NCBI GenBank assembly: GCA_029762595.1
Contig: JARVGJ010000002.1
Location: 62,001-126,000 of the forward strand
Direction of reading: 5' to 3'
DNA: 64,000 nt
DNA from: Methanolobus sp.
GTDB taxonomy: Archaea > Halobacteriota > Methanosarcinia > Methanosarcinales > Methanosarcinaceae
In this document: positions 10,899 through 14,039 of the stretch, piece after piece
Layout of the letters: each line of letters begins with the position of its first letter
Position numbering within the stretch: position 1 is the first letter of the stretch
Translations under genes and position numbers: made by a program
The notes under the pieces: generated by a model
Told to the model about the DNA's origin: nothing
The model's input: the letters and a program-made list of their open reading frames with translations, nothing else
Database searches by the model: none

Positions 10899-13142
10899 CT
10901 ACTCTATGCCCTTATTAATATCTTTTTGTTCTGACTGCATGTAATTGCCATTTTGATCTTTATCAACCAGCACAGCATTGGTAATTGTTATCTTTGCTGT
11001 ATACTCATCCAGCTCAACGATATCAAAATCACGGACATCTATCCTTTTTTTGTACATCGGTCCATCTGTTACGAAACTCTCAAACTCACCGCCTTCTCCA
11101 GCTACATTAAGACCGATCCTCTCATTGAGCTTCACAAGTTTTTCGATGTCCTTTTTCTCAATAATGTGGCCCACCCAGTTTTTGTTCAGGCCGTAAGCAG
11201 CCACACTGCTGAAGATGAATTCAAATCCCCTGTCAAGCAACTGATACATTTCTTTTTCCTGGTCGATGTGCCAGAGGGGTGAGAATACCTTAAGGCCCAG
11301 TTCGTCACACACTTTCTCTATTCTCTCACGCTGGTAATTGGAATACAGAGCTCCGGTGACAACACCATCTATGGCAAATTCGTTCTTTGCGCGAATTATA
11401 GCATTTTTCATATCGTCCAGTTCCTTTTCCTTCTCACCCATGGTAAGTTCTTCGATCAGGGGGAGCTCCATGGCCTCTGCCTGCAGGCGTGCAAGGTCGA
11501 TGTTTGGAGTGTGGAACATGTATGAGTCAGGATTCTGGCTCTTGATCGTTATAAGGCACTCTATGGAATAGTTCTGCTGCTGCATTATGTGCATTGCATA
11601 ATTGCTGTCCTTGCCGGAGCTGAAAAGCACTCCCAGTTTAAGATTTGGCTGGCCGTAGAACTGCCTGAGGTAATCGGTCTTTGTCCGGCAGCCGGCTCTT
11701 TTTGCAAGTCTGCCTATTGCTTTGTCAAACCTGCTGCCATACTGGGCGGCCTGTTTTTTGCGCTGGCTTACACTGGCAGGTATTCCCAGTTCCCTGGCAA
11801 GGAGACGCAATATAAGCTTATTCTGCTCTGCATTGATCTTATATGCAGAAGGTATTTTCAGGCAAAAGTCCACGAACCTTTTGTCAAGGTAAGGCACACG
11901 CAGTTCTATATTGTTATTCATGGAAACAACATCGTCACGGTAAGTGTTCTTTTCGTATATTTTCAGTACATCTGCGTAACAGTCCCTGTCTATATCCGTG
12001 GAACGCTTATGCCGGTCGTATCCTGCAAGTAGCTCGTCTGCCCCTGAACCCGAGAACATCACCCTGATGCCATCTTCCTTTGCAGCAATGCAAGCAGCAT
12101 ACATGGTCAGTGCAACACCGACCTTTGTTACATTCGTATCTTCCACAAGTGGTACCACTTCTTTCAGGTAGTTCTCAACCTCTTCCATTCCGATACTTTT
12201 GATCTTAAGGTCAAGCCCAAGCTCATCTGCCATCCTTTTAGCATATTCTATGTCCGGAGGGAGCTGTACTTCACAAAGACCGGCGGTATAACATGTAAAA
12301 TCCACACCTGGAACTCTACCAAGGAGCTTGCACATATATGCAATGATAGTGGAGTCAAGGCCACCGGAAAAGAGAATACCGAATCTTTCGTCAGGGATAC
12401 GCATCGATACAGCGTTTTCCAGAAGTCTTTGCATTTTTTCCTGCACTTCAATAATGCTGCCTTCGTGCTGAGGAGTCAGTGAGAAGAATTCCCGGTTGTA
12501 TCTTTCTATAGTGCCTGTTGTGATGTCGTAGGCAAGTATCTCTCTGGGATTGAGCTCTCTGATATCCGTGTATCTGTTTTTGGCCAGTGCTTTCTTTTCA
12601 GATGCGAATGCAAAACCGTCAGAGTCTGAGTTAGTGTACCAGAGTGGCTTGATGCCGACGATATCCCTTGCAATGTAAACGGTTCCATTCAGCCAGTATG
12701 CAAAGGCATAGACTCCGATGATCTGGCTCAGCACATCATCGATGACCTGCATGTTCCCATTTCCTAAATGAGCTGTGCTGCCTGCATTGAATACCTGCAT
12801 TTCGATGAGTTTTATCAGCAGGTCTGTGTCGTTCTTTGCATGTATCCCATACTTTTGTGCAAGCTCCTTCCAGTTGTAGATCTCACAGTTTGCAACCATC
12901 CTTCCTTTATAAACAATTGGTTGCAGTACGAAATTGACTATGGAATGAAGGCGATGACCTAAAACGTTCTTTCCTGCAGTTTCTTGCCTGATCCCAAGAG
13001 AATCAAAATCTTCTGCACGGTAAATTTCATCATCGTTACATATTCCAATACCATCCAGCCCCCTGTTCTTTGTTATCTCAAGGGCATCAAATGTATGGTC
13101 CAATGCATTGTCGTTGTTAAAGAAACCTGTAATAGAGCACAT
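10899..13142 (-). CDS. Asparagine synthetase B fused to a Dph6-like ATP-pyrophosphatase
   Basis: A 747-residue three-domain protein. The start is set at 13142 because the glutaminase needs an N-terminal Cys2 (MCSITGFF). Residues 2-190 are the class II glutaminase, about 230-470 the synthetase domain with PP-loop SGGLDS (259-264) and SGSGADELLAGY, where canonical AsnB has SGEG. A second PP-loop domain follows from about 500, with LFSSGKDSNYA (508-513) and GVVTGALYSNYQRERIE, the signature of diphthine-ammonia ligase (Dph6/MJ0570 type). Asparagine synthetase makes Asn with glutamine-derived ammonia; Dph6 amidates diphthine on EF2. The fusion suggests the glutaminase could supply both. A candidate TATA lies near 13210. 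Confidence 0.85.
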   Translation of the reverse strand: MCSITGFFNNDNALDHTFDALEITKNRGLDGIGICNDDEIYRAEDFDSLGIRQETAGKNVLGHRLHSIVNFVLQPIVYKGRMVANCEIYNWKELAQKYGIHAKNDTDLLIKLIEMQVFNAGSTAHLGNGNMQVIDDVLSQIIGVYAFAYWLNGTVYIARDIVGIKPLWYTNSDSDGFAFASEKKALAKNRYTDIRELNPREILAYDITTGTIERYNREFFSLTPQHEGSIIEVQEKMQRLLENAVSMRIPDERFGILFSGGLDSTIIAYMCKLLGRVPGVDFTCYTAGLCEVQLPPDIEYAKRMADELGLDLKIKSIGMEEVENYLKEVVPLVEDTNVTKVGVALTMYAACIAAKEDGIRVMFSGSGADELLAGYDRHKRSTDIDRDCYADVLKIYEKNTYRDDVVSMNNNIELRVPYLDKRFVDFCLKIPSAYKINAEQNKLILRLLARELGIPASVSQRKKQAAQYGSRFDKAIGRLAKRAGCRTKTDYLRQFYGQPNLKLGVLFSSGKDSNYAMHIMQQQNYSIECLITIKSQNPDSYMFHTPNIDLARLQAEAMELPLIEELTMGEKEKELDDMKNAIIRAKNEFAIDGVVTGALYSNYQRERIEKVCDELGLKVFSPLWHIDQEKEMYQLLDRGFEFIFSSVAAYGLNKNWVGHIIEKKDIEKLVKLNERIGLNVAGEGGEFESFVTDGPMYKKRIDVRDFDIVELDEYTAKITITNAVLVDKDQNGNYMQSEQKDINKGIE

Positions 13143-13332: not shown

Positions 13333-13719
13333 TCATGGCCTGCATTCCAGATCAATGCGTTCTTGCGGTGTTAGGGAGATGTAGAATCTCAGTATATCTT
13401 CCGGGTCTATGTCAACACCCAGTTTATACCCTCTGGCCCTTCCTGCCCTGAGGAATCTGTCCTCCTTTTCGTGTTTATTAAGCATCATTTTCTGTGTTTC
13501 TTCTTCATTGAGTCCTGACATATCAACTTTTCTGAGAAGACCTATCAGCAGGAAATTGTTCTCAATGCGTTGGTAAAGGTTCTCTGTTTTGCCCTCAGCT
13601 TTTTTATCAGGTTCGAAAAGATATGCAGTCTCGCCATTAGAACCCTTGTATGCCAGTGATATCTTCCTAAGTACCAGCTTTCCGTTCTCGCATACCAGAA
13701 TCTTGCGCTCGGTCTTCAT
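13333..13719 (-). CDS. Conserved-looking protein of unknown function
   Basis: I do not recognise this 128-residue protein. It is soluble, charged and mixed alpha/beta in appearance, beginning MKTERKILVCENGKLVLRK and ending in QERIDLECRP. The ATG at 13719 is chosen because AGAGG lies 8-12 nt upstream; a longer frame to 13791 has no such signal. Codon use looks like its neighbours. It is upstream of the AsnB-Dph6 gene on the same strand, 190 nt away, with a TATA-like element between them, so it is probably a separate transcription unit. Confidence 0.6.
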   Translation of the reverse strand: MKTERKILVCENGKLVLRKISLAYKGSNGETAYLFEPDKKAEGKTENLYQRIENNFLLIGLLRKVDMSGLNEEETQKMMLNKHEKEDRFLRAGRARGYKLGVDIDPEDILRFYISLTPQERIDLECRP

Positions 13720-14039
13720 TTCATTGCCTCTGTTCATTTTTGCGGAATCCAGATACACAGATTTTTCATGCAAATCATGAGATTGTAGCACCTGCTACAC
13801 TAATTATTGCGTTTGTATCTACAAAAGATGCTTTTCCGATTTTCTACTTATACTTTTCTACACTTTATCATCTAATAATCATCATTATGATGATGTTAAT
13901 TGATTACATGTTCTTTTTCTATATTCAAAATTATATACCATATCCATTCTACATGATCATTATACTTGACCAGTAAATGCAATGCCTGAAATACAAAGAA
14001 CTTCTAAAGGCTTAAGGCAGTAACAAGGACAGCGATAAT

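Follow-up and report, generated by a model that had tools for sequence, protein, structure and literature searches.

This locus raises the question of why a diphthine-ammonia ligase (Dph6) of a methanogenic archaeon is carried on the same polypeptide as a module resembling asparagine synthetase (AsnB). Dph6 adenylates the diphthine carboxylate on the elongation factor EF2, after which ammonia replaces AMP. The AsnB-like module could supply this ammonia, make asparagine or another amide, or serve Dph6 in some other way. The gene lies in a stretch of 64,000 nucleotides from a Methanolobus sp. contig (JARVGJ010000002.1), referred to here as the window.

The initial annotation of the window, made from its letters alone, described a 747-residue chain of three domains with the motifs Cys2, SGGLDS, SGSG and SSGKDS, all of which are present (Table 1). 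The minus strand of this interval holds a single frame of 747 codons, from ATG to the terminal stop and with none internal; the plus strand is interrupted by several stops. Pfam profiles identified GATase_7 (1.4e-16; residues 74–187), Asn_synthase (1.7e-48; residues 237–381 and a second stretch) and Diphthami_syn_2 (4.4e-70; residues 502–714). An AlphaFold2 model based on 57 aligned fusions was confident (mean pLDDT 90.7, pTM 0.86). Its N-terminal part aligned with E. coli AsnB over 442 residues (Z 40.2, rmsd 2.3), and residues 501–728 with P. furiosus PF0828 (3rk1; Z 33.4, rmsd 1.4, 45% identity). The same frame is continuous in 26 of 27 genomes of the host genus, the 27th being interrupted by contig ends. 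A fusion produced by sequencing error, with an unnoticed stop between the domains, is thereby ruled out. An internal start yielding free Dph6 is not favoured either, because no ATG, GTG or TTG stands in frame in the window DNA immediately ahead of the Dph6 domain.

Table 1. Features of the fusion gene in the window (E. coli AsnB numbering where AsnB residues are named; fusion numbering otherwise).
Feature	Position	Strand	Observation
Whole gene, GAT / AsnB-like PP-loop / Dph6 fusion	10899..13142	minus	747 aa, ATG start, stop included; AF2 pLDDT 90.7, pTM 0.86
Class-II amidotransferase-like (GAT) domain, residues 1–205	12528..13142	minus	GATase_7 61 bits; aligns with AsnB, PurF and GlmS structures
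Cys2, class-II nucleophile position	13137..13139	minus	Cys in 79/80 distinct full-length fusions
GHRLHS, residues 62–67; Leu65 at AsnB Arg49 (glutamine clamp)	12942..12959	minus	Leu in 78/80 distinct fusions
NCE, residues 85–87, replacing NGE (Gly75 to Cys)	12882..12890	minus	Cys in 76/80 distinct fusions
AsnB-like PP-loop domain, residues 228–498	11649..12461	minus	Asn_synthase 1.7e-48; 1ct9 Z 40.2 over AsnB part
PP-loop SGGLDS, residues 259–264	12351..12368	minus	SGGxDS in 97/97 full-length fusion rows
SGSG, residues 364–367; Ser at AsnB Glu348 (human Glu364)	12042..12053	minus	Glu in 0/80 distinct fusions
Dph6 (diphthine-ammonia ligase) domain, residues 503–728	10959..11636	minus	TIGR03679 279.6 bits; 3rk1 Z 33.4
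Second PP-loop SSGKDS, residues 508–513	11604..11621	minus	G510, K511, D512 in 68/68 fused Dph6 rows

By tests of sequence, structure model and genomic context, the C-terminal half of the fusion is a Dph6. It scored 279.6 bits with the archaeal profile TIGR03679 (cut-off 197.3). All 68 fused Dph6 rows keep the PP-loop residues G510, K511 and D512 as well as S540, Y603, Q604, E683 and E686, which are listed as EF2-interface residues in the accessible part of PMC3541065. Genome-wide profile searches of the host genome (2.43 Mb, 99.99% complete) retrieved the fusion as the only Dph6 match, one Dph2, and an EF2 whose LHEDAVHRGPAQ contains the diphthamide histidine. Thus, neither a separate dph6 nor a missing EF2 histidine, the two findings that would have spoken against the diphthamide role suggested in the initial annotation, was encountered in this diphthamide-competent genome. 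Dph2 was found in all 49 fusion genomes tested, including the host. Since it is also present in 146 of 148 genomes of one DPANN phylum, its co-occurrence with the PP-loop domain is uninformative. In the DPANN genomes, the Dph2 profile (PF01866) is usually matched by two ORFs, covering approximately positions 1–58 and 60–290, which suggests a split dph2 in many members of this phylum; a split DPH2 has been reported for one nanoarchaeon (PMC3655853).

The N-terminal half appears AsnB-like in fold, but its score with the AsnB profile TIGR01536 (260 bits) is below the cut-off of 267.1. Conserved residues were surveyed in 97 rows, namely ORFs whose match to the query begins at residue 1 or 2 and reaches residue 690 or beyond; Methanohalophilus rows, L139 and contig-cut rows fall outside this set. 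Merging of identical proteins from two collections, done for this count only, gave 80 distinct full-length fusions (40 methanogen and 40 DPANN-like). At the position of the catalytic Glu348 these proteins have Ser (45), Leu (32), or Ala, Thr and Asn (one each), and never Glu. Arg387 is kept in 80 and Lys449 in 79 of the 80 (alignment with E. coli AsnB, PurF and GlmS). The host fusion itself retains the SGGxDS loop and Lys449 but has Ser in place of Glu348, which agrees well with the earlier suspicion that SGSG marks an altered synthetase site. In human ASNS, the variants E364A and E364Q of this position were inactive with aspartate, ATP and ammonium, according to the accessible part of PMC6748925. 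Because two defining residues and the curated score fail, we do not classify the N-terminal half as an asparagine synthetase or, from its sequence, as a glutaminase. Asparagine synthesis by the fused module is doubtful for the family as a whole.

The genomic background of asparagine supply was surveyed as well. In five DPANN genomes, the fusion is accompanied by a full-size AsnB-like gene containing SGEG; four of these five genes have AHERL, which includes Arg49, and NGE was recognized by pattern in two. The host genome contains GatB, and its sole AsnRS-like gene scores as a non-discriminating AspRS (630 bits); no AsnRS was found in this genome. With a non-discriminating AspRS and GatB, asparaginyl-tRNA can form on the tRNA, so that translation in the host does not require a synthetase of free asparagine. 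The search for another asnB in the host, proposed in the initial annotation, gave no other full-size match, and only a short PP-loop ORF of 299 aa (L004, 1339–2238, minus strand; G000:C11) was recovered as a further Asn_synthase match. This match is weak; by eye, the protein seems LarE-like, and its gene adjoins a phosphoglucomutase-like gene. Stand-alone AsnB-like proteins of about 456–555 aa occur in other genomes (Methanosarcina-type L199, L200 and L203; f5 L025, L029, L033 and L035). They have Gln at the Glu348 position and, in the ones checked, Leu at Arg49, and are probably not ordinary asparagine synthetases either.

The GAT domain presents a mixed active site. Cys2, Asn74 and Asp98 are kept in 79, 78 and 78 of the 80 distinct fusions, respectively, which speaks for a working N-terminal nucleophile in these proteins. 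The host has all three residues but lacks the glutamine-binding Arg: the equivalent of Arg49, which is Arg in E. coli AsnB, PurF and GlmS, is Leu65 in the MAFFT alignment. This replacement is shared by 78 of the 80 fusions, and Gly75 is replaced by Cys in 76. The human ASNS equivalent of Arg49 contacts glutamine, as described in the accessible part of PMC6748925. Residues L65, H66, C86, W91, N104 and R200 are near-invariant among the fusions. Such residues close to the altered sites, among them His66, Trp91 and Asn104, are missing from the seven stand-alone homologues compared; the pocket therefore looks rebuilt rather than decayed. A search of solved structures with the GAT region alone returned only weak alignments.

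Cys2 has been lost in the Methanohalophilus rows, in L136, L139 and L235, and in all 11 genomes of group g5. The Methanohalophilus rows include M. mahii (L013), one of the examples of the fusion published in 2012. In the model of a Methanohalophilus protein, residues 1–110 have a pLDDT of 30–65, while the PP-loop and Dph6 domains are mostly confident; the model as a whole still aligns with AsnB (Z 32.0). Additionally, nine DPANN ORFs examined (477–532 aa) are PP-loop–Dph6 fusions without GAT. In L185, a separate GAT ORF overlaps just upstream of such an ORF. The Cys2 losses together with GAT-less fusions and adjacent pairs indicate that the GAT domain is dispensable. As a general rationale, the glutaminase feeding Dph6 that was suggested in the initial annotation is not supported, given the replaced Arg clamp, these losses and the GAT-less forms.

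Among 111 genomes of the host family, Methanosarcinaceae, 50 have the fusion as a continuous frame, including eight genomes of group g3 that match only from residue 81 or 133. Split adjacent genes occur in 13 (2/2 of group g4 and 11/11 of g5), contig-cut forms in three, and 45 genomes are without it. In one DPANN phylum, about 64 of 148 genomes have one match that extends over both the PP-loop and the Dph6 domain. In a contig scan, the best 80 of 499 related stretches belonged to Methanosarcinaceae and, at 42–55% identity, to many DPANN records titled Woesearchaeota, Nanoarchaeota and others. The fusion is thus common in both groups, compared with the few archaea of the 2012 report. The AsnB-like PP-loop had no match in 15 of the 148 DPANN genomes; since 14 of these possess Dph2 and a Dph6 match was listed for at least 10, the partner is not an obligate one. 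Dph6 is a stand-alone protein in most archaea.

Where the genes are split, the PP-loop and dph6 genes are probably translationally coupled, as suggested by the DNA at their junctions. In g4, the two ORFs overlap: dph6 begins with an ATG within the last part of the upstream one. In g5, dph6 starts with GTG 1–14 bases after the upstream stop, and the preceding ORF closes with a ribosome-binding-like AGGAG, which in L227 comes directly after that ORF. At one g5 locus (L230, genome G079), the dph6 ORF is broken into two pieces, 137 and 117 aa long and sharing one frame, either by a sequencing error or by a real stop. Separate PP-loop and Dph6 genes were located in 32 DPANN genomes and were adjacent in five (two tandem and three divergent pairs) and not adjacent in 27; chance adjacency in genomes of about a thousand genes is expected well under once, with the reservation that relatives are not independent.

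The PP-loop domain is under purifying selection, including in lineages that lost Cys2. The dN/dS values for GAT, PP-loop and Dph6 were 0.36, 0.17 and 0.12 in g3, and 0.29–0.35, 0.09–0.13 and 0.04–0.09 in g5, respectively, with pairs of dS above 2.5 excluded; the estimate for g1 rests on 13–15 of 28 pairs and is near saturation. The PP-loop is altered in g5 (SAGIDS in 10 of 11 genomes; the motif AGAG was also seen), and catalysis by this loop is therefore not universal.

Quick trees with SH-aLRT support, in which the direction of transfer is unrooted, were used to examine the origin of the fusion. In the Dph6 tree, 20 fused or split rows from Methanosarcinaceae form one group (support 98) apart from the Methanosarcina-type Dph6. 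In the PP-loop tree, the 20 Methanosarcinaceae rows fall together with eight full fusions of the DPANN side and three that lack the GAT (97); the stand-alone methanogen homologues, whose residue at the Glu348 position is Gln, lie apart (99). To explain the GAT-less group, the starred branches require three changes or more. Fusion-bearing genomes of the host family had no second AsnB-like or Dph6 match among the matches listed (to approximately 1e-44). The simplest reading of these sequence comparisons is a single transfer in which the fusion displaced both native genes, in a direction left unrooted. The conserved neighbours in Methanosarcinaceae include genes for a 152-aa protein, a CDP-alcohol phosphotransferase, PurQ and RNase HII. 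No link to diphthamide was recognized in this neighbourhood, and nothing clear emerged around the separate Methanosarcina-type genes. The 152-aa protein is encoded just upstream of the fusion (window positions 13333–13794, minus strand); it lacks an NCBIfam match, and related proteins are encoded at 15 other fusion loci.

We assign a probability of roughly 0.48 to the following reading of the observed architecture, residue losses, distribution and selection pattern: the AsnB-like PP-loop domain is a repurposed partner of Dph6 and not an asparagine synthetase, with glutamine-fed ammonia at most an optional extra. The C-terminal Dph6 domain would make diphthamide on EF2. The N-terminal two thirds would descend from an enzyme of the asparagine-synthetase type and no longer function as one; the PP-loop domain, which keeps the ATP-binding loop and Lys449 and has lost the acidic residue for asparagine, may have become a physical partner of Dph6. 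The PP-loop and Dph6 pair would be the unit kept by selection, whether fused, split and coupled, or encoded by neighbouring genes. The GAT domain would be an optional accessory that may provide ammonia in proteins with Cys2 still in place and that other lineages have shed. The partner presumably contributes to amidation, where it could either handle nitrogen at the expense of ATP or help shape the Dph6/EF2 complex.

Several other readings compete with this one. Glutaminase ammonia might pass from the GAT through the AsnB-like domain to Dph6, and perhaps also to the asparagine site. The retention of Cys2, Asn74 and Asp98 fits this route, as do the confident full-length model with its predicted AsnB-like arrangement of GAT and PP-loop and the precedent of GAT domains in PP-loop enzymes given in the accessible text of PMC3541065. 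We nevertheless regard the route as unlikely in view of the Arg49 and Gly75 replacements, the loss of Cys2 in M. mahii, g5 and other lineages, the existence of GAT-less fusions and the low-confidence GAT half predicted for Methanohalophilus. It is also conceivable that the AsnB-like half makes a different amide with ATP, the fusion reflecting mere co-regulation of two ammonia users and not a joint reaction. The conserved SGGxDS and Lys449 argue for live ATP chemistry, the near-invariant pocket is not decayed, and Gln-type homologues are separate from dph6 in other methanogens. However, the same gene pair is brought together in several ways (fusion, overlapping ORFs, and tandem or divergent neighbours), and the PP-loop domain of g5 remains constrained despite its altered synthetase motifs; such independence is distinctly unlikely.

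A true bifunctional asparagine synthetase and Dph6, tolerating Ser or Leu at Glu348, is the least probable of the readings. The near-miss with TIGR01536, the predicted AsnB fold and the lack of another full-size match in the host are outweighed by the inactive human variants (accessible part of PMC6748925), by the SGEG genes coexisting with the fusion in five genomes and by the host's AspRS and GatB without AsnRS. As for the repurposed partner, a long shot is that its PP-loop ATPase takes part in archaeal diphthamide amidation as a second, unrecognized component that consumes ATP, and that its GAT, with the clamp Arg changed to Leu and an added conserved His66/Cys86 pair, draws on some nitrogen donor different from free glutamine.

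The residue losses, GAT-less fusions and coupled pairs bear on the source of ammonia in diphthamide synthesis and on the reaction of the AsnB-like PP-loop. For many DPANN archaea and methanogens, a gene annotated as 'asparagine synthase' may not indicate that asparagine is produced, which affects metabolic reconstructions of such reduced archaea.

The fusion itself is known. According to the accessible text of PMC3541065 (de Crécy-Lagard et al., 2012), AsnB is fused to DUF71 (Dph6) in Methanohalophilus mahii, Methanosalsum zhilinae and Nanosalinarum J07AB56, and GAT-II ammonia was proposed to serve both PP-loop domains. A reviewer's comment printed with the paper asks which PP-loop uses ammonia and what the AsnB-like one does. 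The ammonia idea of the initial annotation is therefore a rediscovery. No further report of the fusion was found in the literature searched, to which subscription papers do not belong, and a text search of a 2024 paper on archaeal fusion and fission (PMC11237513) did not retrieve it. The published proteins have the same order of GAT-II, Asn_synthase and Diphthami_syn_2 in one chain as the host protein. The accessible part of the 2012 account speaks of AsnB in a few archaea and makes no mention of residue losses, of the missing Cys2 of M. mahii, of forms without GAT or of a wide spread among DPANN; distribution, residue losses and GAT dispensability are new here.

Compared with E. coli AsnB (1ct9) and human ASNS (6gq3), the host protein shares the GAT-II and PP-loop fold, Cys2, SGGxDS, Arg387 and Lys449, but differs in Arg49 (Leu), Gly75 (Cys), Glu348 (Ser or Leu in the family) and the extra C-terminal Dph6. 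The latter resembles archaeal Dph6 (PF0828, 3rk1; PH1257, 2d13; TIGR03679) over the whole domain, including the identity to 3rk1 and the interface residues given above, except that it sits behind an AsnB-like module; unlike eukaryotic Dph6, it is without RidA domains. Beta-lactam and carbapenam synthetases (1mbz, 1q15) are AsnB-derived folds with repurposed chemistry that close antibiotic rings, whereas the module described here is tied to a protein-modifying enzyme.
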